Source: Acetomicrobium hydrogeniformans ATCC BAA-1850
Lineage (GTDB): Bacteria > Synergistota > Synergistia > Synergistales > Acetomicrobiaceae
DNA length: 64,000 nucleotides
Direction: 5' to 3'
Assembly (NCBI RefSeq): GCF_000160455.2
Contig: NZ_ACJX03000001.1
Location: 1,002,001 to 1,066,000, forward strand
Under the pieces are notes generated by a model. The model was not told where the DNA came from, did no database searches, and was given only the letters and a program-made list of their open reading frames with translations. Numbering within the stretch: the first letter of the stretch is position 1; each line of letters starts with the position of its first letter. The position numbers and the translations under genes are program-made. Below are positions 29,930-46,008 of the stretch, in pieces.

Positions 29930-31395
29930 TCACCAACCTCAAACCCTACCCCGCCTACAAAGACTCCGGCGTGCCGTGGCTCGGCCATGTGCCGGAGCAT
30001 TGGGAGGTACGGCGAGGCAAGACTCTTTTTCGCTGCATAGACGTGCGATCCCAGACCGGACAGGAAGAGTTACTTACGGTTTCATCTGAGCGTGGGGTTG
30101 TTCCCAGGCGCTCAGCGAATGTAACGATGTTCAAAGCGGAATCCTACGTAGGCTACAAGCTCTGCTGGCCAGATGATCTTGTGATTAACAGCCTGTGGGC
30201 TTGGGCTCGCGGCCTTGGCGTGTCGCCCTATCACGGCATAGTTAGTTCCGCTTATGGCGTGTACCGCTTGCGAAACAGACAGCAAGACAATCCCCGTTTC
30301 ATTCATCAACTTGTACGTTCAACACCATTCCAATGGGAATTGCTGGTCCGCTCCAAAGGGATATGGGTCTCACGCTTGCAACTTACGGACGATGCATTCC
30401 TGGGTGCTTCCTTCCCCATGCCTCCTTCGAATGAACAAACTGCCATCGTCCGCTTCCTCGATTACATCGACCGGCGGATTTGGCGATACATCCGCGCCAA
30501 GCAGAAACTGATCAAACTGCTGGAAGAGTACAAGCAGGCCCTCATCCACCAGGCCGTCACCGGCCAAATCGACGTCCGCACGGGCAAGCCTTACCCTGCC
30601 TACAAAGACTCCGGTGTGGAATGGCTGGGTGAGGTGCCGGAGCATTGGGAAATTAGGCGACTGGGTAGTTCAGTACGTGGTTGTGTGAATGGCGTTTGGG
30701 GTTCAGAACCCAACGGAAAAGATGATCTGCCGTGCGTACGTGTCGCGGATTTCGATAGATCTCGACTTCGCGTGCACCTTGACAAGCCAACGATGCGAGC
30801 AATCAGTTCCAGCGATCGAGTCCGTCGCCTTTTGGAGCCAGGTGATCTGCTTTTAGAAAAGTCCGGAGGGGGTGATCTACAACCTGTCGGAAGGGTGGTC
30901 TTGTATGATCATCCGACTGTAGCAGTCACCTCGAACTTCATCGCTCGCATGCCAGTCGAAAATGGATACGACTCGATTTACCTAACGTATCTGCACGCAG
31001 CGTTGTATTCGATCGAGCTCAACGTTCGTTCAATCAAGCAAACCACGGGGATTCAAAACCTGGATTCGAGGACCTACCTTAGTGAACTGGTCGCTTTCCC
31101 GCCTCTCCCCGAACAAACTGCCATCGTCGAATACCTCGACACCCAGACGGCAAAGATCGACGCTGCCATCTCCGCCGCTCGCAGCGAAATTGATCTTCTG
31201 CGCGAATACCGCACCCGCTTGATCGCCGATGTGGTAACCGGTAAAGTGGATGTGCGCGAGGTCGCAGCACGGTTGCCGGAGGAGCCGCCTGAGGAGGAGG
31301 CTGAATCGATGGACGCCGACGTGATGGCTAAAGATGAGACGACAGATGAAGAAGTCGGCACCGAGACCGTTGAAGAAGAGGAGGTTGAACCATGA
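29926..31395 (+). CDS. hsdS: Type I restriction-modification specificity subunit HsdS
   Basis: A 489-residue protein with two target-recognition domains (about 15-165 and 230-390). They are separated by conserved coiled-coil spacers (RIWRYIRAKQKLIKLLEEYK and AAISAARSEIDLLREYRTRL). Each half opens with nearly the same motif, KPYPAYKDSGV followed by WLG-x-VPEHWE, showing internal duplication. The LIHQAVTGQIDVRTG and LIADVVTGKVDVRE segments close each half. It defines the bipartite DNA target of the HsdM/HsdR complex; the sequence recognised cannot be read out. The acidic C-terminal tail (EEPPEEEAESM to the end) is unusual. Start and stop overlap neighbours by ATGA. Confidence 0.95.
   Translation: MITNLKPYPAYKDSGVPWLGHVPEHWEVRRGKTLFRCIDVRSQTGQEELLTVSSERGVVPRRSANVTMFKAESYVGYKLCWPDDLVINSLWAWARGLGVSPYHGIVSSAYGVYRLRNRQQDNPRFIHQLVRSTPFQWELLVRSKGIWVSRLQLTDDAFLGASFPMPPSNEQTAIVRFLDYIDRRIWRYIRAKQKLIKLLEEYKQALIHQAVTGQIDVRTGKPYPAYKDSGVEWLGEVPEHWEIRRLGSSVRGCVNGVWGSEPNGKDDLPCVRVADFDRSRLRVHLDKPTMRAISSSDRVRRLLEPGDLLLEKSGGGDLQPVGRVVLYDHPTVAVTSNFIARMPVENGYDSIYLTYLHAALYSIELNVRSIKQTTGIQNLDSRTYLSELVAFPPLPEQTAIVEYLDTQTAKIDAAISAARSEIDLLREYRTRLIADVVTGKVDVREVAARLPEEPPEEEAESMDADVMAKDETTDEEVGTETVEEEEVEP
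29941..30015 (+). repeat. Internal direct repeat of hsdS (second copy 30586-30660)
   Basis: The two 75-bp segments, 645 bp apart, share long identical runs (for example GCCTACAAAGACTCCGG and GTGCCGGAGCATTGGGA). Such repeats in hsdS allow domain exchange and unequal recombination of specificity domains. Confidence 0.85.
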
Positions 31396-34394
31396 AGCCC
31401 ACCGACACCAGCGAAGCCGGGCTTGAGAGCCTAATCTGCCGGGCTCTGACCGGCAGTGAATGTGTAACCCGACCTGCCGGCACTCCGACATTCGTAGCCG
31501 AGCTGCCGGCACCTTATGGCGGTGTGGGTTGGCTGCCCGGCGACCCGGCCGATTACGACCGCGAGTACTGCGTCGATCTGGTTCAGCTCGCGGCGTTTCT
31601 GCGCACCACACAGCCCGAGGTCGCCGAAGCGCTCGACCTGGATAACGACAGCCCCACGCGGCGCAAGTTTCTGACGCGTCTTCAGGGCGAAGTGAGCAAG
31701 CGCGGGGTGGTGGACGTGCTGAGAGGCGGCATCCAGCACGGGCCTTACCGCATCGAGCTCTTCTACGGCACTCCTTCCCCCGGAAACGAGCAGGCGCGGG
31801 CGCTCTATGAGCAGAACCGCTTTACCGTCACGCGCCAGCTGCGCTACAGCCGCGACGAGTTGCAACGGGCGCTGGACCTGGTGCTCTTTATCAACGGCCT
31901 GCCGGTTTTCACTTTCGAGCTCAAAAACCGCCTCACCAAACAGACGGTGCACGGCGCCATCGAGCAGTACAAACGTAACCGCAACCCGCGCGAGAAACTA
32001 TTTGAATTGGGCCGCTGCGTGGCGCACTTCGCCATGGACGAAAACGAGGTGTGGTTCTGCACCCACCTTCAGGGCAAGGCGTCGTGGTTTCTGCCTTTCA
32101 ACAAAGGCTACAACGACGGCGCGGGCAATCCTCCCAACCCGCAGGGGCTCAAGATTGATTACCTGTGGCGGGAGATACTCACCCGCGAGAGTCTGACCGA
32201 CATCCTCGAAAACTACGCTCAACTCATAGAGGAGAAAGACCTCAAGACCGGCAAGAAACGGCGACGGCAGATCTTCCCCCGCTATCACCAGCTCGACGTG
32301 GTGCGAAAACTCTTGGCGGACGCGGCGGCGCACGGCGTGGGCCGCCGCTACCTTATCCAACATTCTGCCGGCAGCGGCAAGTCCAACTCCATCGCCTGGC
32401 TGGCCCACCAGCTGATCGGTCTCGCGAAGGACGGAAGACCTGTTTTCGATTCCATTATCGTGGTGACCGACCGTCGTATTCTGGACCAGCAGATCCGGGA
32501 TACGGTCAAGCAGTTTGCCCAGGTGAGTGCCACGGTAGGGCACGCCGAACATTCTGGCGACTTGCGGCGGTTTATAGAGAGCGGCAAGAAGATCATTATC
32601 ACGACACTGCAAAAGTTCCCGTTCATCCTCGACGAAATCGGCAACGAGCACCGCGGGCGACGTTTTGCCATCATTATCGACGAGGCGCATTCAAGCCAGG
32701 GCGGCCGCACCTCAGCCAAGATGAGCATGGCCTTGTCGGAGGCCGGTGCAGAGGAGGAAGACGAAACCTTCGAAGATCAGATCAACCGGCTAATGGAGGC
32801 CAGGAAGCTTTTGCCGAACGCCAGCTACTTCGCCTTCACCGCCACCCCTAAGAACAAAACGTTGGAGATGTTTGGTGAACCCGAGCCGCAGCCCGACGGA
32901 ACGGTTAAACACAGGCCGTTTCATAGCTATACCATGAAACAGGCAATCCAGGAAGGGTTCATCCTGGATGTGTTGGCCAACTACACACCGGTCAAGAGCT
33001 ACTATAGGCTTATCAAGACCATCGAAGACGACCCTGAATTTGACGTCAAGAAGGCGCAAAAGAAGCTGCGCCGCTTCGTGGAGGGGCATGAGCACGCCAT
33101 CCGGCTCAAGGCCGAGATCATGGTGGATCACTTTCATGAGCAGGTGATCGCCAAGGGCAAGATCGGCGGCCAGGCGCGGGCCATGGTGGTGACCGGCAGC
33201 ATCGAGCGAGCTATTCAGTACTTCCATGCCTTCAGGGCGTACCTTGCCGAGCACAAGAGCCCTTACCGTGCCATTGTCGCTTTCTCGGGCGAGCACGAGT
33301 ATGGCGGTCAACAGGTCACCGAGGCCAGCCTTAACGGTTTTCCCTCGAACCAGATCGCCGACAAGATCCGGGAGGAGCCGTATCGGTTTTTGATCTGCGC
33401 CGATAAGTTCCAGACCGGCTATGACGAGCCGCTCCTGCACACAATGTACGTGGACAAGGTACTCTCCGGGGTCAAGGCGGTACAGACACTTTCGCGACTC
33501 AACCGCGCCCACCCACAGAAGCACGACACCTTCGTCCTCGATTTCGTCAACGACCCGGAGACGATCCGAAAGGCCTTCGAGCCCTACTACCGGACGACCA
33601 TCCTCGCCGACGAGACCGACCCGAACAAGCTACATGACCTCAAAGCGGACCTCGACGCTTATCAGGTATACGCTCCCAAGCAGGTAGACGATCTTGTTCG
33701 GCTCTACCTGAGCGGGGCCGACCGCGACCAGCTCGACCCGATCCTCGACGCCTGCGTCGCCACCTACATGGAGCATCTCGACGAGGACGGTCAGGTCGAC
33801 TTCAAGGGCAAAACCAAGGCGTTTCTGCGAACCTATAACTTTTTGTCTTCGATCCTGCCCTACACCAACGCCGAGTGGGAGAAGCTATCGATCTTTCTCA
33901 ACTTTCTGGTACCCAAGCTGCCGGCGCCGAAAGAGGAAGACCTCTCAAAGGGCATCCTCGAGGCGATCGACATGGACAGCTACCGGGTCGAAAAGCAGAC
34001 GACCATGAGGATCGCGCTTTCCGATGCGGATGCCGAGATCGAACCGGTGCCCACGGCGGGCGGCGGACACAAACCCGAACCGGAGCTCGATCGTCTCTCG
34101 AACATCATCAAGGCTTTCAATGATCAGTTCGGCAACATCCCCTGGACCGACGCCGACCGGGTGCGCAAACTGATCACCGAGGAGATCCCTGCACGCGTAG
34201 CGGCCGACACCGCCTACCAGAATGCCCGCAAGTACTCTGACAAACAGAACGCGCGCATCGAGCACGACAAGGCGCTGGCCCGCGTCATGACGGGGTTGCT
34301 TCAGGATGATACGGAGCTCTTTAAGCAGTTCAGCGACAACGAAGGTTTTCGACGCTGGCTAACCGATACGGTGTTTGCTTTGACCTTTGAATAA
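31392..34394 (+). CDS. hsdR: Type I restriction endonuclease/translocase subunit HsdR
   Basis: A 1000-residue protein. The N-terminal nuclease domain has the PD-(D/E)XK-type core around LPVFTFELKNR, followed by AIEQYKRNRNPREKLF. The superfamily 2 motor follows: Walker A HSAGSGKSN, DEAH box (IIIDEAHSSQGG), motif III FAFTATPKNKTLEMFG, and motif VI-type QTLSRLNRAHP. The C-terminal helical domain binds the methyltransferase core. It cuts unmodified DNA after translocation. It is the last gene of the operon, starting with an ATGA overlap on hsdS. All motifs look intact, so the restriction system should be active. Confidence 0.95.
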   Translation: MKPTDTSEAGLESLICRALTGSECVTRPAGTPTFVAELPAPYGGVGWLPGDPADYDREYCVDLVQLAAFLRTTQPEVAEALDLDNDSPTRRKFLTRLQGEVSKRGVVDVLRGGIQHGPYRIELFYGTPSPGNEQARALYEQNRFTVTRQLRYSRDELQRALDLVLFINGLPVFTFELKNRLTKQTVHGAIEQYKRNRNPREKLFELGRCVAHFAMDENEVWFCTHLQGKASWFLPFNKGYNDGAGNPPNPQGLKIDYLWREILTRESLTDILENYAQLIEEKDLKTGKKRRRQIFPRYHQLDVVRKLLADAAAHGVGRRYLIQHSAGSGKSNSIAWLAHQLIGLAKDGRPVFDSIIVVTDRRILDQQIRDTVKQFAQVSATVGHAEHSGDLRRFIESGKKIIITTLQKFPFILDEIGNEHRGRRFAIIIDEAHSSQGGRTSAKMSMALSEAGAEEEDETFEDQINRLMEARKLLPNASYFAFTATPKNKTLEMFGEPEPQPDGTVKHRPFHSYTMKQAIQEGFILDVLANYTPVKSYYRLIKTIEDDPEFDVKKAQKKLRRFVEGHEHAIRLKAEIMVDHFHEQVIAKGKIGGQARAMVVTGSIERAIQYFHAFRAYLAEHKSPYRAIVAFSGEHEYGGQQVTEASLNGFPSNQIADKIREEPYRFLICADKFQTGYDEPLLHTMYVDKVLSGVKAVQTLSRLNRAHPQKHDTFVLDFVNDPETIRKAFEPYYRTTILADETDPNKLHDLKADLDAYQVYAPKQVDDLVRLYLSGADRDQLDPILDACVATYMEHLDEDGQVDFKGKTKAFLRTYNFLSSILPYTNAEWEKLSIFLNFLVPKLPAPKEEDLSKGILEAIDMDSYRVEKQTTMRIALSDADAEIEPVPTAGGGHKPEPELDRLSNIIKAFNDQFGNIPWTDADRVRKLITEEIPARVAADTAYQNARKYSDKQNARIEHDKALARVMTGLLQDDTELFKQFSDNEGFRRWLTDTVFALTFE

Positions 34395-34648: not shown

Positions 34649-35572
34649 TTAAAAGTACAAGAAGCAGGCCACGCTTCTGTCGTCTCCGATTTTCTTTAGG
34701 GGAGGAAGAGCGTGGCATCTGTCCGATGCATAGGGACATAGGGAGAAATAGGGGCAGCCTTTCCAGTGAGGAGGAAGGGGCCTTCTTTTCGTCTTTATCT
34801 CGATTGGCTTTCCAAGCCTTGGAAGAGCCGCGGAAAGCGCCATGGTGTAGGGGTGGAGAGGATCTTTCAGGAGGGGGGCGGTATGGCCTGTTTCACACAT
34901 GTGACCCCTATAAAGGACAATCCCCCGTTCGGCGATGGCCTTGGCCAGTAAGAGATCGTGGGTGACGAAGATCAGAGACATGCCTCTTCGGTGGTGTCCT
35001 CTTATCAGATTGACCAGATCCATGCGCGTTGATGCATCCTGCATGGAAGTGGGTTCGTCAGCGAAAAGCAGCTTCGGATCCGTTACAAGGGCACGGGCCA
35101 ACATTATCCTCTGGCGCTGGCCACCCGAAAAACCCTGGATCAATTTTCTGTTCCATAGGGTTTCTCCTATGCCCAAAGATGACAAAAGCTTCTTTGCCCT
35201 CTCCCGTCCTGTCTTTTTGACGTTTAATCGGGTAATTACAAGCGGCTCCGTTACAGCTTGAAGGGCAGTAAGGGTTGGCGGTAGACCTCCGAAGGGATCC
35301 TGGGGTATGTAGCTGCAAGCTCTTCTTATCTCCCGAAGCTCTTCGTCGTCGACTTCATCCAAATATTTGTCGAAGAGGCGCACCCTTCCGCTGGTGGGTT
35401 CAATAAGGCCTAGGAGGATTCGTAACATCGAAGTCTTGCCGCTCCCTGATTCTCCTATAAAGGCGATGCTTCCGCCTCTTTGTATGGAAAATGAGACGCC
35501 GGAAAGGGCATAATTTTTTTCTTTGTCGAAGGCAAGGGTCACATTTTCCGCCGAAACTATCTCTTCTTTCAA
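34649..35572 (-). CDS. Oligopeptide/dipeptide ABC transporter ATP-binding protein (DppF/OppF type)
   Basis: A 307-residue ATPase. Walker A is GESGSGKTSM, the signature is FSGGQRQRIMLARAL, and Walker B is LLFADEPTSMQDASTRMDL. The C-terminal oligopeptide-type extension contains a Cys-rich segment (CPYFSLCPYASDRC) as in the Opp/Dpp family. The TTG start overlaps the upstream ATPase stop (TTGA). It is the last gene of the five-gene importer operon. A Met replaces the usual Ala/Gly-Leu pattern after DEPTS, a minor variation. Substrate class is inferred from family only. Confidence 0.9.
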   Translation of the reverse strand: MKEEIVSAENVTLAFDKEKNYALSGVSFSIQRGGSIAFIGESGSGKTSMLRILLGLIEPTSGRVRLFDKYLDEVDDEELREIRRACSYIPQDPFGGLPPTLTALQAVTEPLVITRLNVKKTGRERAKKLLSSLGIGETLWNRKLIQGFSGGQRQRIMLARALVTDPKLLFADEPTSMQDASTRMDLVNLIRGHHRRGMSLIFVTHDLLLAKAIAERGIVLYRGHMCETGHTAPLLKDPLHPYTMALSAALPRLGKPIEIKTKRRPLPPHWKGCPYFSLCPYASDRCHALPPLKKIGDDRSVACFLYF

Positions 35573-36339
35573 TGTTCTTCCTCCATTGTGCGCAGGGATC
35601 TGATCAGAGAAGCCGTATGGGGGTGCTTTGGATCGTTAATTATTCTATCCCTTTCGGCGGTCTCCACGATTCGGCTTCTGTGCATAACTGATATTTTATT
35701 GGCAATGGAGGCGGCCAGGGCCAAATCATGGGTTACCATCAACATGCCCATATTGCGTGCCTTCACTATTCTTTTGAGGAGATCTATTATCTCAGCTTGC
35801 GTTATGACGTCCAGGGCGGTGGTCGGTTCGTCCGCCAGCAAATAATCGGGGCTGCAACATAGAGCCATCGCAATAGCGCAGCGCTGTTTTTGGCCCCCCG
35901 ACATCTCGTGAGGAAATCTACGGAGAAACTTTCGATCCAAGCCCACTTCCTCCAGAAGTTCGCCTGCCCTGGCCGCTGCGTCTGTCTCCTTCATATTCAG
36001 ATGTTCTTGCATTGCCTCGACGAACTGTCTTTCCATCGCCAAGACAGGAGTGAAGGAGTTCATCGAACCTTGAAGCACCAAAGATACCTTCTTCCATCTG
36101 AATTGTCTTTTCCTGTCGTGGGGAAGGCTCAAGAAGTTCATGCCGTCTAAAAAGACTTCACCCGATGTCTTGGATCCTCTGGGCAAAAGGGCAAGGGATG
36201 CGTAAAGGAGGCTGCTTTTGCCGCTGCCCGATTCTCCTACCAGCGCCACTATCTCACCGGGTGAAAGCATTAGATTGGCGTCTGTAACGGCCTTGATGCC
36301 GTTGGGGTAGGTAACGCTTAAATGGCTAATCTCCATCAT
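35569..36339 (-). CDS. Oligopeptide/dipeptide ABC transporter ATP-binding protein (DppD/OppD type)
   Basis: A 256-residue ATPase. Walker A is GESGSGKSSL, the signature is MSGGQKQRCAIAMAL, and Walker B is YLLADEPTTALDV. It ends soon after the ABC core (HTASLIRSL), lacking most of the extra C-terminal oligopeptide domain of classical DppD. The start ATG at 36339 makes an ATGA overlap with the upstream permease; the frame itself is open to 36510 inside that permease gene and should not be read as coding there. It acts as one half of the ATPase heterodimer. Confidence 0.9.
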   Translation of the reverse strand: MMEISHLSVTYPNGIKAVTDANLMLSPGEIVALVGESGSGKSSLLYASLALLPRGSKTSGEVFLDGMNFLSLPHDRKRQFRWKKVSLVLQGSMNSFTPVLAMERQFVEAMQEHLNMKETDAAARAGELLEEVGLDRKFLRRFPHEMSGGQKQRCAIAMALCCSPDYLLADEPTTALDVITQAEIIDLLKRIVKARNMGMLMVTHDLALAASIANKISVMHRSRIVETAERDRIINDPKHPHTASLIRSLRTMEEEH

Positions 36340-37517
36340 TTCCTCAAACTCTCCTTCAATCGCGGATCTGTTCTCTCCTCGAGTTGCCTTCCTATGCCGA
36401 TAAAGGTAAGGCATATCGCGGCTATTCCCAGGCCAGGCGGAAATATAAGCCACCAAGCGCCTCCTGTGAAGGCGCCAAATACGTGAGCTTCGTGTAACAT
36501 CCGCCCCCACGAGGGCATTAAAGGATCGGAAAGGCCCAGAAAAGAGAGCCCCGCTTCGGCCAGTATCGCTCCAGGAACGCCGAGCGCCATTTGGGCAAGC
36601 AGGAGAGGCAGCGCTTCCGGCACGAGATGTCGGGCCAAGATGTATCCCGTTGGCGCTCCCAGGGCTCTAAGGTTTTCAATGTAAGGAGCTTCTCTGATCG
36701 ATAGTGTCATAGCTCTGACGACCCGTGCCGTTCCCATCCAGGAAAAAATGGACAACACCAATACTATCTGCCAGAGCCCTCTTCCCCATATCCCTGAAAT
36801 GACCATCAATATCGGCAGAGTCGGTATGGCAAGCAGAACGTCGATCATCCTCATTATCACCGAATCGACGAAACCGCCCAAATAACCTGCCAGCAAGCCC
36901 AACCCCATTCCCAGCGTAGAGGCCAGCAAAGTGGCGGATATTCCCACCAAGAGGGAAATTTTGATGCCCTCCACGAAGAGGCGTAAGACATCCCTTCCCC
37001 TTTGATCAGTCCCAAAGATACCCCATCTTCCGACGTGGATGTCCAGGTTCAGATCGATGGTCGCATCCTCGTCGGATTTAACGATTAATTCGTATATGCC
37101 CCTTTCGGAGAAGGCGATCTCCGAAAGGTCTGAGAAGGGATCCATGCCCAATTCCAATTTCAGGGGCACATCCCTGGAATCGATGTCGATATCGAACCTT
37201 TTGGCTCCCGAGAGATCCGCCAATTTGTAAGCTCCGCTTGGCGTTACGAGTAAAATAAAGGCTTTTTCGGGAGGTCTGTCGAAGGATACGGTGCCTTTTA
37301 GAGAGAATGTCGCAGGAGGATTGTCGTCCCATTTAAAGGAAAAGATCTCGTCCTTCACGCTGTAAGATCGGGGAGCCGGCGATTTAAGGTCTAGCCAGAG
37401 TGGCTTGGAAAAGGGCGGAGCTACCGTTTCGTTTGCAGGTCCCATGAAAAGCGGGGCCAAAAATGCCAAAATGAGGAAGATGATCAGGATGAGAATGCCG
37501 TAACGTCGCAAGATCAT
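36336..37517 (-). CDS. Peptide-type ABC transporter permease with extracytoplasmic insertion (DppC-like)
   Basis: A 393-residue protein, about 100 longer than usual DppC/OppC. The first membrane helix (about 5-25) is followed by an extracytoplasmic domain of roughly 130 residues (about 30-162) rich in beta-type sequence (TFSLKGTVSF, AFILLVTPSGAY, IYELIVKSDED). The standard FGTDQRGRDVLRL entry to the BPD_transp_1 domain then follows. The EAA loop contains LRALGAPTGYILARHLVPEALP. The insertion has no counterpart I can name and may contact the unusual binding protein. It overlaps both neighbours by ATGA-type junctions. Confidence 0.85.
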   Translation of the reverse strand: MILRRYGILILIIFLILAFLAPLFMGPANETVAPPFSKPLWLDLKSPAPRSYSVKDEIFSFKWDDNPPATFSLKGTVSFDRPPEKAFILLVTPSGAYKLADLSGAKRFDIDIDSRDVPLKLELGMDPFSDLSEIAFSERGIYELIVKSDEDATIDLNLDIHVGRWGIFGTDQRGRDVLRLFVEGIKISLLVGISATLLASTLGMGLGLLAGYLGGFVDSVIMRMIDVLLAIPTLPILMVISGIWGRGLWQIVLVLSIFSWMGTARVVRAMTLSIREAPYIENLRALGAPTGYILARHLVPEALPLLLAQMALGVPGAILAEAGLSFLGLSDPLMPSWGRMLHEAHVFGAFTGGAWWLIFPPGLGIAAICLTFIGIGRQLEERTDPRLKESLRK

Positions 37518-38494
37518 CGCCTTACCTTTCTGAAGCTTATTCTCGGATCCACCAAGGCATAGGCTACGTCAGCCAGCAGATTGCATATGACGGTTATTAA
37601 GGCAAGAAGGTAAAAGGCGGCCCCGGCTGCCGGATAATCGTGTCCCGAGACGGCCTCGAGCAGAAATTTTCCAACGCCGTGGAGGGAAAAGACCGTCTCC
37701 GTGATCACCGCTCCCGATATAACCCCCGGCAGGGACAGGAAAAAGATGGTTATAATTGGAGGGAGGGCAGTCCTGAAGGCATGTCCCCAAAGGATTTGGC
37801 CTTCTCTCAGCCCCTTCGCCCTAGCCAGCAAGACGAAGTCCTCTCCCAAGGTCTTTACCATAAGGTTTCTGACGTAAAGCGCCCACGAACCAAAGCCGAT
37901 CAGCACCAGAGAAAGGACCGGTAAGGCCATATGCCATACCTTGTCTCCAAGGAGGTTCCAGAAACCGACGGGTGGAGGGATGGAGGCGCTGCCCCTCAGG
38001 GGAAAGAGGGGAAGGACATGGGCGAAGAGCAGTAGGAGGACTAGCTGTACGAAGAAGGATGGAAAGGAAAACGATACTGCACCCGACATCAATACGATCT
38101 TCTCGCTGAATTTCCCCCTCCCTTTTGCAGCCATCACCCCCAGAAAGGTACCCAATAAGGCAGAGAGAAAAAGGGAAGGCAAAAGCAGCGCCAACGTATT
38201 GGGCAGCCTCTCGGCCAATTCCTGCCAAACAGGTTTTTGAGATAAAAAGGAAAGTCCGAATTTGAAGGAGAGCATTTGTTTGACGTACAAAAGAAATTGT
38301 TGGAATAGAGGTTTGTCCAGGCCGTAGGATTTCAACAGCTCCTCCTTTGCTTCGGGAGAAAAACGCGGGTCGAGTAAGGTGCTAGTAGGGTCACCGGGCA
38401 TCAGCCTGAAAAGAAAAAAGTTAAGAGATAGAACAATGACTATGACCAAAAGGCTTGTGAAGATCCTGCGCATCCAGTAATTACCGCTTTTCAA
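37514..38494 (-). CDS. Peptide-type ABC transporter permease (DppB-like)
   Basis: A 326-residue protein of normal DppB length with six helices. The family N-terminus (FFLFRLMPGDPTSTLLDPRFSPEAKEEL) and the EAA loop (RAKGLREGQILWGHAFRTALPPI) are clear. It forms the pore with the DppC-like protein. It overlaps the binding-protein gene by 4 bp upstream and the DppC-like gene by 4 bp downstream. Confidence 0.92.
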   Translation of the reverse strand: MKSGNYWMRRIFTSLLVIVIVLSLNFFLFRLMPGDPTSTLLDPRFSPEAKEELLKSYGLDKPLFQQFLLYVKQMLSFKFGLSFLSQKPVWQELAERLPNTLALLLPSLFLSALLGTFLGVMAAKGRGKFSEKIVLMSGAVSFSFPSFFVQLVLLLLFAHVLPLFPLRGSASIPPPVGFWNLLGDKVWHMALPVLSLVLIGFGSWALYVRNLMVKTLGEDFVLLARAKGLREGQILWGHAFRTALPPIITIFFLSLPGVISGAVITETVFSLHGVGKFLLEAVSGHDYPAAGAAFYLLALITVICNLLADVAYALVDPRISFRKVRR

Positions 38495-40149
38495 CGAACA
38501 GCTCTCCTCCAGTAATTATTGTTTTTAAGAAGTTTTACATACTCTCCGGGTTTATAACTTGCAAATTGGAAGGGACCTGTGCCGATCAACTTATCCGGAG
38601 AAAGGGACCTCCAATCCTCTGTGTTACAAAGCACGTGGGCGGGCAGTATGGGCAATCCCCCGATTTGATGTAAATACCAAAAGCTTCTTTGTGAAAATGT
38701 TATGACGACGAGGTTTCCCTGTGTCTTTATGTCTTCTATGTCTTTGATATTATCGTAGTACCTGGGGATGGAGTGTCTACGCATGAAGGCTATGGTAGCT
38801 TTTACGTCTTCGGCGGTAAAGGGTTTGCCGTCATGCCATTTAATATCTTCCCTGACGACAAAGAAAAGGCGCGTCCTTTCTCTGCCATCGTCGGTGGTCT
38901 CTATCCTCCAGCTTTTTGCAAGCCATGGAATGTCTTCCAGTGTGAAGGGATCGGTGCCCAGTAGTGATTCGTATATCAATGAAAGCACTTGCCAATCGTA
39001 GGCACTGCCCGCAGACAGAGGGTTCAGATTGCGGGGCTCTTCGGGCAGGCACCAATAGAAGTTTTTTCTGCCTTCTCTGTGTTTTAGGGACAAAAATGAA
39101 TAGACGTTATCGGGAGTCGTGTATTTAGAGGTTACGGCGTTTTCCCAATTACTTTGCAGTGCCGTGACGTAGTATCTGGAGTATATCGGCACCTGAGGGA
39201 CGTACTCATAAAGGAGCTTTTGCGCTTCCCTGGCAGCTGCGCGCGCCTCATTTTCATCCTTTGCGGATTTAAGAGCTTCCAGCGCCTCATCCAAATCAGG
39301 CATCTTTATGCCGCTAATGTTATAGCCACCCTCTATATCCATTGAGGAGTGATAGAATGCGTATAAGCTGTCAGGGTCTCGAGACAGCCCCCAGGCAATG
39401 ACGTAGGCATCGAAATCCCTTCTATCGAGGCGGGAAACCATCATGGAAAAATCCATAGGCTCCGTCTCGATGGGAATGCCAAGGCCTCTCATCGATTCGC
39501 AGATCCTCTCCGCTATCTCCGCTGTAGTGGGTGCCACCTGGGCTGTGGGTGTCATGAGTTTCATCCTGGGAATAGCTTTGGTCTGTCCCGGATATATCAA
39601 GACCCCCTTTTTGCTCCAGCGCCAGCCGGACTTCTCAAGCCTCTCCCTTGCCTTTTCGAGATTTGACTCCCCTAGAGGTGATTCTGCCTGGTAGGAAGAA
39701 GCGGGAGGCAAAAAGGAAAAAAGAGGCAGGGCATAACCTCCAAAAACATCTCTCACAATTTGCTTTCTATTCAGGACCTCCCATATCGACCGTCTCAGCT
39801 CCACCCTGTCCCATGGGGGCTTTCTTAAATTAAGCCCCAGAAAGAAAGCATGAAATCCCTCGGCTAGGTAGAGGTCTATCTCTTCGTTATCGCTAAGTCT
39901 TCTTATATCCGAAATACGAGCGATATCCCCCAGCATATCTACCTTGCCGCCTTCCAGCGCCAAAAGCTGGGCGTCGTTGTCCTTTATGATGACGCAATAA
40001 AGATCTTCAATGGTTGGCAGGTCGGTTAGCAGATCGTATTCGTCGAAGGGCGCTGCCGCTCCTGTATGGGGTGCAAAGGCAAAAAGAAGGGTCGTAAAGG
40101 CGACGAAGGCAAAGACTTTAGATTTATAAAGGGCTTTACTGTCTCTCAC
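38491..40149 (-). CDS. Circularly permuted SBP_bac_5 family ABC substrate-binding protein
   Basis: A 552-residue secreted protein with a signal peptide (about 1-33). The family order is inverted. Residues about 44-358 match the C-terminal part of DppA-like proteins: LPTIEDLYCVIIKDNDAQLL, ALEGGKVDMLGDI, VELRRSIWEVLNRKQIV and VPIYSRYYV. Residues about 361-552 match the N-terminal part: LNPLSAGSAYDWQVLSLIYE, DIPWLAKSWRI, VREDIKWHDGKPFTAEDVKA and IGTGPFQFASYKPGEYV, ending at NNNYW where a normal protein would run on into the LPTIED-like segment. Total mature length is normal for one binding protein. The frame is uninterrupted and the operon intact, so it is probably functional. It likely binds peptides or related compounds. 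Gene order SBP-DppB-DppC-DppD-DppF is standard. Confidence 0.88.
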   Translation of the reverse strand: MRDSKALYKSKVFAFVAFTTLLFAFAPHTGAAAPFDEYDLLTDLPTIEDLYCVIIKDNDAQLLALEGGKVDMLGDIARISDIRRLSDNEEIDLYLAEGFHAFFLGLNLRKPPWDRVELRRSIWEVLNRKQIVRDVFGGYALPLFSFLPPASSYQAESPLGESNLEKARERLEKSGWRWSKKGVLIYPGQTKAIPRMKLMTPTAQVAPTTAEIAERICESMRGLGIPIETEPMDFSMMVSRLDRRDFDAYVIAWGLSRDPDSLYAFYHSSMDIEGGYNISGIKMPDLDEALEALKSAKDENEARAAAREAQKLLYEYVPQVPIYSRYYVTALQSNWENAVTSKYTTPDNVYSFLSLKHREGRKNFYWCLPEEPRNLNPLSAGSAYDWQVLSLIYESLLGTDPFTLEDIPWLAKSWRIETTDDGRERTRLFFVVREDIKWHDGKPFTAEDVKATIAFMRRHSIPRYYDNIKDIEDIKTQGNLVVITFSQRSFWYLHQIGGLPILPAHVLCNTEDWRSLSPDKLIGTGPFQFASYKPGEYVKLLKNNNYWRRAVR

Positions 40150-40170: not shown

Positions 40171-41322
40171 CTAACACTCCGGCGGCGGTGCCCAGATGCC
40201 CTCAGCAGCGTCGCGCATTACGGGACAATAAACGATACCGGCTTTGGCGGTCCTGGAGCAGGCGTTGCAAGAAATGCATTCGGCCGGCTCTCCGTCTCCC
40301 GAGGCCCATCGATTAACCAGGTCCGGTTCCGCTATGAGGGGCCTCGACAGGGAGAAGGCCTCTGCCGTACCTCTATCGAAAAGATTTACCATCCTTTCCT
40401 GGGATCTCAATCCGCCGACCAATATTACCTGGGTGGTCTTGCCCACCCGCTCCCTTATAGCGCTGGCTTCTTCTGCAAAATAGCCCTCATTTTTACCGGC
40501 TATTATGCCCGCACGGGATGGCGAAAGGTTTTTGTCTCCGTAGAAGGTTCCGCCCGAAACTTCAATGGCGTCGACTTTTACCCTGGCCAGCTCCTGGGCA
40601 AGCCTTATCCCCTCAAGGCTGGAGTAACCCTCGTTAGCTCCCTCTGTGACCGATATCTTGACCCAGAGAGGAAAATCTTCTCCGGTGCGATATCTGATTT
40701 CCTCAAGGATCTCAAAAACTATTCGCGCCCTTTTTAGGATATCCTCTCCTCCGTATGCGTCCTTCCTTTTGTTGAAGATGGGGGAAAGAAATTGAGTCAG
40801 AAGAAATCCGTGAGCGAGGTGAAGCTGTACCCCATCGGCATTAGAAACCTTCGCTCTTTGGGCTGCCTTTGCGAAATCCGTTATGAGCGAATGAATCTCG
40901 GATATGGTCATCCCTTTGCAGGGACGGCCCGTCATTGGGTTTTTGACATCCGAGGGAGCAAGGGTAACCCCGTCTTCTGCTGTAATGCTAAAGGCACCGG
41001 CATGTGAGATCTGAACTATCATGGGGCATCCTGTCCCATGAGCTTCGCTGACGAGATTGGCGAGCCCGGAGATGTTATCGTCGGAAGATATGGATAGCTG
41101 GCGGGGGGAGGCCTTGCCGTTGGAGTTAACGTACGTATGACCTGTTATAATGAGTCCTACGCCACCCTTGGCCAACTCCTTGTATTTTTCGATTAATTTG
41201 GGAGTTGGATTTCCCGTTTTTTCGTCTGCTCCTGCCATATAAGTGGCCGATCGAATAATTCTATTTTTTACGCCAATCCGTCCTAGCGTGGCAGGTTTCA
41301 TGATGCTATCGGCAAATGACAT
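40171..41322 (-). CDS. NADH:flavin oxidoreductase, Old Yellow Enzyme family
   Basis: A 383-residue FMN-binding TIM-barrel protein. Family features include KPATLGRIGVKNRIIRSAT, IVQISHAGAFS, DGVQLHLAHGFLLTQFLSP with the substrate His pair region, and the late LVGGLRS phosphate-binding segment. The C-terminus carries ECISCNACSR, like the start of a cluster motif of the 2,4-dienoyl-CoA reductase branch, but the protein ends there without the second flavin domain. ATG at 41322 has AGGGAGGG at good spacing; the frame is open to 41379. The likely role is reduction of activated C=C bonds. It lies 21 bp before the ABC operon in the same direction and may be transcribed with it. Confidence 0.88.
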   Translation of the reverse strand: MSFADSIMKPATLGRIGVKNRIIRSATYMAGADEKTGNPTPKLIEKYKELAKGGVGLIITGHTYVNSNGKASPRQLSISSDDNISGLANLVSEAHGTGCPMIVQISHAGAFSITAEDGVTLAPSDVKNPMTGRPCKGMTISEIHSLITDFAKAAQRAKVSNADGVQLHLAHGFLLTQFLSPIFNKRKDAYGGEDILKRARIVFEILEEIRYRTGEDFPLWVKISVTEGANEGYSSLEGIRLAQELARVKVDAIEVSGGTFYGDKNLSPSRAGIIAGKNEGYFAEEASAIRERVGKTTQVILVGGLRSQERMVNLFDRGTAEAFSLSRPLIAEPDLVNRWASGDGEPAECISCNACSRTAKAGIVYCPVMRDAAEGIWAPPPEC

Positions 41323-41463
41323 AAATGATCCCTCCCTTTGTGTGGTCGCCCTGATATTTAGATTATATGTCATTTCCATGGGGCTTGATGTAGAATATGT
41401 AATTGAAAATGACTGAAAATATGGGACTATTATTATATTAGCATAGCAAAAGAGGAGATAAAT

Positions 41464-44400
41464 ATGAAACGTTTCTTCGCGGGCATAGATATAGGTTCAT
41501 CTACTATTCATAGCGTCCTTTTGGATGAATCGGGCAAAATCTTTTACGTCTCTCCGAGCCTGTCCCATTTTGGGGCCCCTTTGAATAAACTTCCCGATGT
41601 ATGGGCGTACCTGTCGGCAAACTCAAAAGACGGAGAGATTGTCTCAACTGCTTTTACGGGCATTGGTGCTCAATACATTAAAGACGTCTTTCCCAAATTG
41701 CTCTTCGACTACGAAAGCGTAACAATTCCAAAAGGGGTATCCCTTTTATGTCCCGATGCGGTTTATGTCTTTCACATCGGCGCAAAGGATTCCTACTTCT
41801 TCCGATTGGGCCATCTGGAGAAAGAGGTCAATCTGCTCGAATGGTCCGCTAACAGCAAATGCGGCGGAGGGTCGGGCATGCTTATAGAAAAGCAGCTGAG
41901 GCGTCTTTATCTCAAAGAAGATGAATTGCTGTTCAATTCTAATGCTGCCGATGAGAAATCCAAACTCATGGAGAGCCTTTACGAGCAAGCCGAGAAGGAC
42001 CTGGCCCGACATGAGTCCGTGCAAGGTTTTAATGCTCGCTGTGGGGTAGTGATTCAGTCGGATTTGATACACGAACAGAACGAGGGAGCAGATCGTGCAT
42101 ATCTGGTATCGCGCCTGTTTGCTACAGTTGCTCGAAATTACAAAAACGATGTAGTTGGTGCAAGAGATCTCGATACCTCACTTTGTTCCGTTGCCACGGG
42201 AGGTGTTTTTGCAAGCGATTATCTTCTAAAGCGCCTTCAGGAACTTTTGGGCGTGGTTTTGAAACGCCCCCGGCATTTTAGGGCCGTCGCTGCAATAGGA
42301 GCAGCCTATGAGGCGATAGAAAAGGGCAATCGTCACGTTATGGATTTTTCAAAGGTAGGCGAAATTACTTCTTTCGTTAGGGATAAACGTCCCTCCGCAC
42401 CTCCTCTATATACATTCTTGGATAAAGTGCACGTATACGATGGAGAGGTAAAGGAAGTAGACGATGGCGATATCAGGGATGTAGTTATTGGCGTTGACGG
42501 TGGTTCTACTACGACCAAGGCAGCTGTGGTGGACGTATCGACGGGAGACCTCCTCGATAAGATATACATAAGTACTCATGGCGACCCCGAGGGAGCCTTG
42601 AAGGAAGTCTTCAGATATCTCTCGGGTAAGGCCGAAAACTACAACGTCCGGGGTATATGCACTACCGGTTCGGCCAGAAAGCTTTATGAGCGCATCCTCG
42701 TTAGCCAATCGAAGAAAAGGGTCCTTGAATCCGAGGGCTTTATAGTCCTTGACGGTGCCGTAGATGAAATCACCTGCCATGCCGTTGGCATTAAACATCA
42801 CGATCCGGCCATAGATACCATTTTCGAAATAGGCGGCCAGGACATGAAGTTTACGACCTTTAAGGTAAAAGGCAGTGTGCCCACAGATGAGATTGAGGAA
42901 GCTCGCATGAACTATTCCTGTCAGGCAGGAGCGGGTCAGACCCTTGAGAATATGGCACAGCTTTTGGACCTCGACGTTAAATCCAGCCTCCAGGAGGCGG
43001 CGCTCAAGGCCGATACAGTTCCTCTGATAGATTCAACTTGCGGCGTCTTTATGGAGATGGAAGAAAACAGGCTCATAGCAGAGGGCTTCTCAAAGGAACA
43101 GATTGCAGCGGCGATCATAAGGGCTACGGCTGCTAGTTATTTCAACAAGTTCGTGGGAGGGCCGCAGCACGTAAAAAGCAAATGCTCATGCCAGGGCGGT
43201 CCCGCTTTGGGGTTGGCCTTTCTGGCTGCAATGGCCCAGGTCACGGGCAAGGAGATATATGCATATCCCCATAGAGAGCTTTTCGGCGCTTGGGGAGCAG
43301 GACTATTTTTGCGCAACAGGATATTGCAGCTGCAAACCGAAGGAAAGGAAGTGCGATCCGCCTTCAGGGGTTTCGAAGTGGTTGACATAAAATTCGAGAA
43401 ACGGGATGTCCTGTGCAGCGACCACTTTGGGCCTTTGTCCTGCGGAATGAGAAACTGTAAGTTGAAGATATTTTCCATAGGAGGAGAAGAGGTTATAACA
43501 GGAGGATTCTGTCCCAGGGGAAACAGCGAGGGGGCGGGTCAAAGCAGAAAGGATTACGTCGAAATCTATCATAAGTTATTGGATGAACACTTCGACGGCA
43601 TTTTGTATGAAGACCTGGATGAGCTCGATGGATTGGATTTGCCCACGATTGGAATACACAGAAGCGGCGTCACCCTGGGCGATTTGGGCATATGGTCGTC
43701 AGCTCTCTTTAAAAAGCTGGGATTTCTACCCGTGTTCACACCGAAATCGGATGACGAGATAGCCCAAGTAGGCATAAACATCGCTCCCACAGAGTTTTGC
43801 ATTGCCATGAAGCTTGTAATAGGACATGCTGCGCTACTTTATCACGACAGAAGGATCAAGCATCTTTTCAACCCTTGTTTCATAGAGGAAACCAGGCCCG
43901 AGAAGCCCCATCGCAAGTTTTGCATCTATACCGAAGCTGAGGGTTATCTGCTGCAGGATATATTGGGAATAGAGCCCGAAAGGGAATTTTTAAGCGTGCT
44001 CTACCTTGGGGACGACGAAAGATCAGCCAAATATTTACACGAAGAATTTCGCAGGCTCGGTTACGATTTCAGCGTTGAAAGAATTTTGGAGGCCATGTCC
44101 TATGCAAAAGAGAAGCTCAAGGCTTTCAAAGAAGCAGTTTATAAACACGGCGACGAATTCTTGGAGGAGCTGGAAAGGTCAGGCGAAGTGGGCTATGTGG
44201 GATTGGGAAGGGATTACGTGATTTTGGATCCCCAGGCCTCGTCAAACTCGGGGTCGATGTTCTCGAAGCAGCGGGGCATGAGGTATATTCCCCAAAGTTT
44301 TCTCGAGAAATACTATCACGATATCCCCATCGATGAGCTATGCTACAACGAATATTGGTATCAAAATGCCCACATACTTCAGGCTGCCATATATACGGCA

Positions 44401-46008
44401 AGACATCCCAGGCTTTTCCCGATCAGGCAGATGAACTTCGCCTGCGGTCCCGATTCCATGAAGTTTTATCATGAGAGCGAGATCTTCAGGAGGGCGGAAA
44501 AACCCTTTCTTCATCTTGTTACCGATGCCCAGACAAATAACGCCCCCTTCGTCACGAGGGCCGAAGCTCATGAGCGCGTCGTCCAAAGGGCAAAGCCCAA
44601 GACGGACTTGCCTCTGTCCGACTTTGTACTTTTTCCTCATGACGGGGAAAAGGAAAAGGTGAGCTTAGGGTCCCGCGTATGGTTAATACCTTACATGGGT
44701 GAGGCCAGTCGTTTTGGAGCTGCCGTCTTGCGACATTACGGCGTCAATGCCATGGCCATGCCCACGGCCACCAGCGCATCCAAGGACGCCGCAAGCAGGT
44801 TCATAACGACGGAGACGTGTTTCCCCCTTCGCGGGGTAGTTGGTGACGTGATGGCTTCCATAGAGGAGCTTGCCCGAGAAAGGGGAAAGGAGTGGGTCAG
44901 AGACAACATCGTTATATTTTTACCGACCACGTCGGGTCCATGCAGGTTCGGCAAATACGGAGAGGTATTAAAGATATTTTTGAAACAGGAAGGACTTGAC
45001 TCTGTCCCCATAGTGAGCCCCTCCACGGACAGCAGCTACATAGAGATAGAGGCCCCCGAGCAATTCGGCGGAACATTGGGAAAGGCCAATGCCCTTATAA
45101 ACGTATTTAGGGCCATTAAAATGGCGGATATGGTGGATGATCTTATCCGCAAGTTCCGCCCCTACAGCGACGACAAAAAGGCCTTCGACGAGCTGTGCAA
45201 GCAGAGATTGGATCTGCTGGAACATTTGTTAGTTGAAAATAGCGCTTCTTATGCAACGCTGAAGCGGTGGACGAATGAGACCATGGTCCTTTTTATGAAA
45301 GAGGCCCCAAAGGCCAAACATCATTCCTTGCCTCTCATCCTTTATGTGGGAGAAATTTACACGCGGCAACACGATCCCTACACGGAATACGTGATAAAGA
45401 GGCTGGAGGAAGAGGGTTTGGAAGTGGTCAGGGGGAGCATCACGGAGTGGCTAGAATATATCAACTATCTGACGATCAGGGACAATCCTAAATTTCCTTA
45501 TAAGTTTGCTCAATTTTACATGGAATACGCCGATTGGCGATTCAAGCGGATCTTCGGGGAGACCGCCAAGGAAAGGGAGGTCCTGCCTAAACCCAGAGTC
45601 ATAATAGAAGACCTCCAAAAAAGCAGGAGATACCACGGAGATATCACCGGTGAATCTCCTTTGGTAATAGGCATCTTTTTGAAGTTTTTGCGAGGGGAAT
45701 TACCAGGCAACGGGCAGAAGGTCTGCGGGATATTCCATGTGGGTCCCTTTACCTGCATGCAAGAAGGCGTCGCCATGGCCAAGATGGATGCCATGTTGAA
45801 GGAAGAGACCAAAGACAACCACGGTTTGATCGTGCCCGTGGTCCATGCCTTTTTCGGAGACTCGGCCAACACCAACCTGGAGGCGGAAATAGCCGCCTTC
45901 AGAGAGCAGTGCCGTCTTAAGGCCAGGATGAACGGTTCCGTGGGTTTTAAAAGCAAAAGAACGAGCCCTGCCGTAAAGGGTAATCTCGTGATTCAAGAAA
46001 GGTCTTAG
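41464..46008 (+). CDS. Acyl-CoA dehydratase activase-related giant protein (two BadF-type ATPase domains, DUF2229, HgdB-like end)
   Basis: 1514 residues. The first ASKHA ATPase domain (about 1-300) starts with FFAGIDIGSSTIHSVLLDES. The second (about 340-610) starts with VVIGVDGGSTTTKAAVVDVS and has the activase landmarks IGGQDMKF and NYSCQAGAGQTLENMAQ. A Cys-rich joint (CGMRNCKLKIF, then GGFCPRGNSEGAG), a DUF2229 region (about 735-960; TIGIHRSGVTLGDLGIWSSA) and a C-terminal part with HgdB-like character follow. Activases of this group power radical dehydratases by ATP-driven electron transfer, but these fused giants have no proven substrate. It is single-gene, with its own downstream terminator. 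Domain limits are approximate. Confidence 0.85.
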   Translation: MKRFFAGIDIGSSTIHSVLLDESGKIFYVSPSLSHFGAPLNKLPDVWAYLSANSKDGEIVSTAFTGIGAQYIKDVFPKLLFDYESVTIPKGVSLLCPDAVYVFHIGAKDSYFFRLGHLEKEVNLLEWSANSKCGGGSGMLIEKQLRRLYLKEDELLFNSNAADEKSKLMESLYEQAEKDLARHESVQGFNARCGVVIQSDLIHEQNEGADRAYLVSRLFATVARNYKNDVVGARDLDTSLCSVATGGVFASDYLLKRLQELLGVVLKRPRHFRAVAAIGAAYEAIEKGNRHVMDFSKVGEITSFVRDKRPSAPPLYTFLDKVHVYDGEVKEVDDGDIRDVVIGVDGGSTTTKAAVVDVSTGDLLDKIYISTHGDPEGALKEVFRYLSGKAENYNVRGICTTGSARKLYERILVSQSKKRVLESEGFIVLDGAVDEITCHAVGIKHHDPAIDTIFEIGGQDMKFTTFKVKGSVPTDEIEEARMNYSCQAGAGQTLENMAQLLDLDVKSSLQEAALKADTVPLIDSTCGVFMEMEENRLIAEGFSKEQIAAAIIRATAASYFNKFVGGPQHVKSKCSCQGGPALGLAFLAAMAQVTGKEIYAYPHRELFGAWGAGLFLRNRILQLQTEGKEVRSAFRGFEVVDIKFEKRDVLCSDHFGPLSCGMRNCKLKIFSIGGEEVITGGFCPRGNSEGAGQSRKDYVEIYHKLLDEHFDGILYEDLDELDGLDLPTIGIHRSGVTLGDLGIWSSALFKKLGFLPVFTPKSDDEIAQVGINIAPTEFCIAMKLVIGHAALLYHDRRIKHLFNPCFIEETRPEKPHRKFCIYTEAEGYLLQDILGIEPEREFLSVLYLGDDERSAKYLHEEFRRLGYDFSVERILEAMSYAKEKLKAFKEAVYKHGDEFLEELERSGEVGYVGLGRDYVILDPQASSNSGSMFSKQRGMRYIPQSFLEKYYHDIPIDELCYNEYWYQNAHILQAAIYTARHPRLFPIRQMNFACGPDSMKFYHESEIFRRAEKPFLHLVTDAQTNNAPFVTRAEAHERVVQRAKPKTDLPLSDFVLFPHDGEKEKVSLGSRVWLIPYMGEASRFGAAVLRHYGVNAMAMPTATSASKDAASRFITTETCFPLRGVVGDVMASIEELARERGKEWVRDNIVIFLPTTSGPCRFGKYGEVLKIFLKQEGLDSVPIVSPSTDSSYIEIEAPEQFGGTLGKANALINVFRAIKMADMVDDLIRKFRPYSDDKKAFDELCKQRLDLLEHLLVENSASYATLKRWTNETMVLFMKEAPKAKHHSLPLILYVGEIYTRQHDPYTEYVIKRLEEEGLEVVRGSITEWLEYINYLTIRDNPKFPYKFAQFYMEYADWRFKRIFGETAKEREVLPKPRVIIEDLQKSRRYHGDITGESPLVIGIFLKFLRGELPGNGQKVCGIFHVGPFTCMQEGVAMAKMDAMLKEETKDNHGLIVPVVHAFFGDSANTNLEAEIAAFREQCRLKARMNGSVGFKSKRTSPAVKGNLVIQERS

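Follow-up and report, generated by a model that had tools for sequence, protein, structure and literature searches.

An apparently functional, circularly permuted SBP_bac_5 receptor in a five-gene ABC importer operon of the Synergistota

The window, by which we mean the whole stretch of 64,000 nucleotides of DNA that was analysed, contains an importer of the Dpp/Opp type, encoded by an operon with two BPD_transp_1 permeases, two ABC ATPases and a substrate-binding protein of the SBP_bac_5 family, here called SBPc (Table 1). The initial annotation had described the SBPc frame as clean and the operon as intact, and both descriptions hold, although the strand had been omitted and is the minus strand. 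The frame is free of internal stops and overlaps the next permease gene by 4 bp, and the same five genes were present in the relatives examined, in the order SBP-B-C-D-F wherever the contig was long enough. A scan for promoters and terminators gave no signal clearly above shuffles. Within positions 34649-36339, the oligo_HPY domain was matched by the second ATPase only; the C-terminus of this protein contains several cysteines, possible counterparts of the Fe-S cluster site known from DppD/DppF.

A gene for an FMN oxidoreductase (40171-41379) lies on the same strand and ends 21 bases before SBPc, an arrangement seen in only one of 20 neighbourhoods (G004, from the same genus). A type I restriction HsdR-like gene (31392-34394) converges on the operon, and a 1514-aa CoA activase (BcrAD_BadFG plus DUF2229; 41464-46008) diverges from the cluster. 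No conserved neighbours that could give a clue to the ligand were found beyond the operon itself at the 20 loci, each of about 10-18 kb.

Table 1. Features of the importer locus (window coordinates).
Feature	Coordinates	Strand	Basis or remarks
SBPc, permuted SBP_bac_5 substrate-binding protein gene	38491..40149	(-)	552 aa, GTG start
Apparent N-terminal signal peptide, residues 1 to ~33, without lipobox cysteine	40051..40149	(-)	Judged by eye from the sequence
Canonical C-terminal part of the SBP_bac_5 fold, residues ~45-353, placed first	39091..40017	(-)	Pfam, phmmer, BLASTP, profile, alignment
Joint of canonical C-terminus and N-terminus, ~8-residue linker, 354-361, SLKHREGR	39067..39090	(-)	Profile rotation and alignment
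Canonical N-terminal part, residues ~362-548, NPxYW motif at its end	38506..39066	(-)	phmmer, BLASTP, profile, alignment
DppB/OppB-like permease subunit	37514..38494	(-)	TTG start overlaps SBPc stop
DppC-like permease subunit, 393 aa	36336..37517	(-)	Domain match, alignment
Insert (~120 aa) of the DppC-like permease, between TM1 and TM2	37029..37400	(-)	Predicted beta-sandwich, conserved in the family
First ABC ATPase	35569..36339	(-)	Likely start is the ATG at 36339, because homology begins only at ORF residue 58
Second ABC ATPase with C-terminal oligo_HPY domain	34649..35572	(-)	Domain match

The two parts of the SBP_bac_5 fold have exchanged places in SBPc, as the initial annotation had proposed, and this is borne out by four kinds of sequence comparison. 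The Pfam model (PF00496) matches SBPc in two stretches with a total of 205 bits, against a cut-off of 32.4, and model positions 144-363 come before positions 3-145, contrary to the canonical order; all 34 aligned members of the family match the same model. A phmmer search against the PDB aligned residues 392-549 with positions 39-191 of chain 8efz and residues 47-315 with positions 195-452 of the same chain. Likewise, BLASTP comparisons with normal-order proteins from the same phylum gave mirror-image pairs of matches, for example residues 371-546 with positions 35-203, and 45-333 with 208-497.

The fourth comparison used a profile of 26 normal-order substrate-binding proteins, none of them from the SBPc family, against which the mature sequence was rotated in steps of five residues. 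Native SBPc matched this profile as two domains, of 139.9 bits (profile 215-508) and 113.9 bits (profile 30-222). The suggestion to align SBPc after swapping its halves at about residue 360 proved apt: rotation at residue 354 merged the two matches into the best single domain of 264.6 bits, continuous over profile positions 31-507 of 520. The same behaviour was shown by five of six other members of the family; the sixth (L103_0), which had been given a wrong automatic start so that only 35 residues were kept, was left out of the count, and its native match likewise consists of two out-of-order domains. For the three normal-order controls, the unrotated score was best or tied for best. The boundaries first suggested for the two parts (residues 44-358 and 361-552) are correct to within a few residues. 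In the alignment, the new termini fall within a loop that reads NPxYW/GGxPKL, with the break at the slash.

SBPc is also predicted to fold as one compact protein. The AlphaFold2 model, calculated from the 34-row alignment, has a mean pLDDT of 91.2 and a pTM of 0.88 over 519 residues, with values below 50 only at the two ends, and its best Foldseek matches are the cluster C proteins AppA, Mtb OppA, NikZ, NikA and DppA. Each of these alignments covers about 300 columns at a TM-score of about 0.48, as would be expected when a sequential aligner is given a permuted chain. It is conceivable that the two parts pair between molecules, in a domain-swapped dimer instead of an intramolecular permuted monomer. 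Since a monomer was predicted with confidence over the whole chain (pLDDT 91, pTM 0.88, in a monomer-only prediction), we regard this as improbable.

Relatives of the permuted gene are numerous. Homologues were identified in 42 of 61 near relatives, fragments counted, and the full-length ones are 42-96% identical to SBPc. Across the phylum, 108 of 188 Synergistota genomes, several single-contig assemblies included, have a match to the family profile with E below 1e-60, essentially one each; most of these hits were judged from search tables, and 34 were aligned. Among 12 genomes searched specifically for PF00496, the ten with the family all showed the permuted arrangement (144-363, then 3-145), and the other substrate-binding proteins of these ten match the model as one piece; the family is absent from the remaining two (G006 and G017). 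In four near-complete genomes (G008, G013, G025 and G048), the two SBPc pieces were the only PF00496 matches at E below 1e-10. A scan of contigs with the single SBPc protein returned two near relatives together with distant normal-order proteins.

Our working statement is that the permuted SBPc is restricted to the Synergistota. A search of 392 relatives gave matches in 46 of 260 genera, and within the Synergistota the number of genera matched was likewise 46 (of 63); about 204 of these genomes lie outside the phylum, and every listed match belonged to the taxonomic order of the window. The permuted protein was also absent from four further searches centred on other phyla (54, 42, 2 and 17 genomes). 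The outside-phylum sample thus amounts to about 300-320 genomes, a few of which overlap between searches, with the Bacillota and other large phyla thinly sampled; the 108 Synergistota genomes matched by the same query served as positive control. The best matches on plasmids were at most 31% identical, and none were found on viral contigs.

Two homologues (G051:C1:1106300-1107927 and G029:C43:179-1592) were each recovered as two separate matches, with a stop in one case, which may reflect decay or an assembly error. Elsewhere in the same genome as SBPc, a normal-order SBP_bac_5 gene (G000:C1:938273-939418; loci L003 and L096) has an in-frame TAG within the matched stretch and is either a pseudogene or affected by a sequencing error. 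The few listed homologues that are split or contain a stop (G051, G029 and G059) could be taken to mean that SBPc itself is a product of misassembly or recombination, or a gene in decay. An explanation of this kind is ruled out by the same order in many separately assembled genomes, single-contig ones among them, and by purifying selection, and its probability is negligible.

The selection estimates come from comparisons in which dN lies far below dS, at the joint as well as in the two parts, with dS saturated for all but the closest pair; both parts are under purifying selection. A tree of the 34 members requires 11 changes of taxonomic-family label, where the minimum is 9. Nine groups contain more than one row; since six of them each form one well-supported group (f1, f2, f6, f8, f9 and f10) and three are mixed (f3, f4 and f5), SBPc was inherited mainly by vertical descent, with a degree of exchange or differential loss.

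As for the origin of the permutation, the initial annotation invoked tandem duplication followed by partial loss. This route is plausible, although its expected intermediate of about 1000 residues appeared in none of the match lists, in which the longest open frame with a family match has 722 aa. That result would also suit another history, in which the C-terminal part of one SBP_bac_5 paralogue was fused to the N-terminal part of another, mimicking a permutation, as would the observation that the nearest normal-order lineage differs somewhat between the separate trees of the two parts; the closest normal-order proteins are only about 25% identical. However, the permuted proteins form one clade in both trees, and at the canonical break the two parts complement each other with hardly any residues missing or shared; moreover, the end product of such a fusion would still be a permuted fold. 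We therefore consider the fusion of paralogues rather unlikely and favor a single rearranged chain.

What SBPc binds is a separate matter. The two ends of the dipeptide in E. coli DppA are held by R383 (carboxylate) and D436 (amine), in precursor numbering (PMC12136057). In one multiple alignment at about 25% identity, the corresponding positions of the SBPc family hold Ala/Ser and Ser/Thr/Gly; adjacent to them, Arg257 is nearly invariant (33 of 34 members). Because both residues of this clamp are missing, the designation "peptide-binding" given in the initial annotation is unsupported, and SBPc is unlikely to hold a peptide in the DppA manner; family membership is the sole ground for that label.

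An alternative for the ligand, compatible with the permutation, is that the importer is of the nickel or metal-chelate type (NikA/Cnt). The best NCBIfam matches of SBPc are indeed nickel-binding proteins, the first ATPase is closest to NikD, and a tryptophan aligned with NikA W398 is invariant among the members. Yet none of the NCBIfam scores comes near its curated cut-off (118 bits where 600 is required, and 112.6 where 393 is), which leaves SBPc outside NikA as defined there. In the alignment already mentioned, with its identity of about 25%, 32 of 34 members have Asp at the position of NikA H416 and the other two have Asn. On balance, we find a nickel or metal-chelate importer unlikely.

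The permease pair also has an unusual feature. The DppC-like subunit is 385-417 aa long in 17 aligned members, compared with 300 for E. coli DppC, 302 for OppC and 277 for NikC, and the excess lies between TM1 and TM2. In the AlphaFold2 model, this insert is a sandwich-like domain composed largely of beta strands (pLDDT 86.2, pTM 0.76). Its PDB sequence search gave nothing convincing (three matches, with E of 0.6 or more), Foldseek with its model returned only weak matches, and no match was found on plasmids. The insert profile matches 106 of 188 Synergistota genomes, and a comparison of the two lists by eye placed receptor and insert together in 105 genomes, the receptor alone in three (G078, G134 and G139) and the insert alone in one (G133); in a few genomes they are on different contigs, or apart on one contig. 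Such co-occurrence is expected because the genes share an operon, and it is by itself no sign of contact. The earlier guess of an unusual permease is strengthened by the conserved beta-sandwich insert, although any engagement of this permease by the receptor is putative. A tentative idea, which we consider possible but below even odds, is that the permuted receptor and the insert evolved together as one docking module and define a distinct subclass of importers, specific to the Synergistota, for a non-peptide ligand.

We conclude that the permutation is real, old and apparently functional, because more than half of the Synergistota genomes sampled have it, along with a permease bearing an extra periplasmic domain. 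There is strong support for the proposal of a natural permutation that folds and has been kept: retention across an order, one confident predicted fold, purifying selection and genomes in which SBPc is the sole SBP_bac_5 protein seen. With a probability of roughly 0.87, we favor the hypothesis that SBPc works as the periplasmic receptor in a Dpp/Opp/Nik-type ABC importer of five subunits and that the SBPc chain has been circularly permuted. The old N- and C-termini would have been joined by the short linker, and new termini opened in the NPxYW/GGxPKL loop, which separates the canonical N-terminal part from what normally follows it. This probably happened once, in an ancestor of the Synergistota, by tandem duplication with loss of the opposite ends. 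The protein, with its predicted compact fold, may then bind its ligand between the two lobes, in a way other than that in which DppA holds a dipeptide, and deliver it to its own permease pair, with docking that could involve the insert of the DppC-like subunit.

SBPc is retained across an order and in four genomes is the only SBP_bac_5 protein seen. It thus represents a natural test of how strongly lobe closure and permease docking are constrained by the connectivity of the chain, and the permease insert found alongside it makes this question experimentally tractable.

Compared with the cluster C substrate-binding proteins of PF00496 (DppA, OppA, NikA), SBPc is homologous over both parts, has a similar signal-like N-terminus and is likewise encoded in an operon with two permeases and two ATPases, and only in SBPc is the order of the two parts swapped. 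The DppA residues R383 and D436 are replaced, as described above. The E. coli DppABCDF system (PMC12136057) has the same five-subunit layout with DppB-like and DppC-like permeases, and differs in that there is no beta-sandwich insert between TM1 and TM2 of its DppC. Our literature search found no report of a permuted SBP_bac_5 or cluster C receptor, although most subscription journals were outside the search and an earlier description is possible.

The nearest precedent, and the only natural one found, is TpMglB-2 (Tp0684) from Treponema pallidum, a circularly permuted cluster B sugar-binding protein that binds glucose and changes conformation in vitro (PMC4990184). Both are natural circular permutations of the substrate-binding protein of an ABC importer. 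TpMglB-2, however, is a lipoprotein with the cluster B (type I) fold, permuted within the N lobe and with a fourth hinge cross-over, whereas SBPc belongs to cluster C, is cut elsewhere, has no lipobox cysteine in the window protein and is spread through an order. An assignment of SBPc to the TpMglB-2 type (cluster Bc) is ruled out by the sequence matches and the top Foldseek hits, which are to cluster C. SBPc thus adds to the one cluster B family in which natural permutation of an ABC receptor has been found described, and places such a permutation in the large cluster C family.
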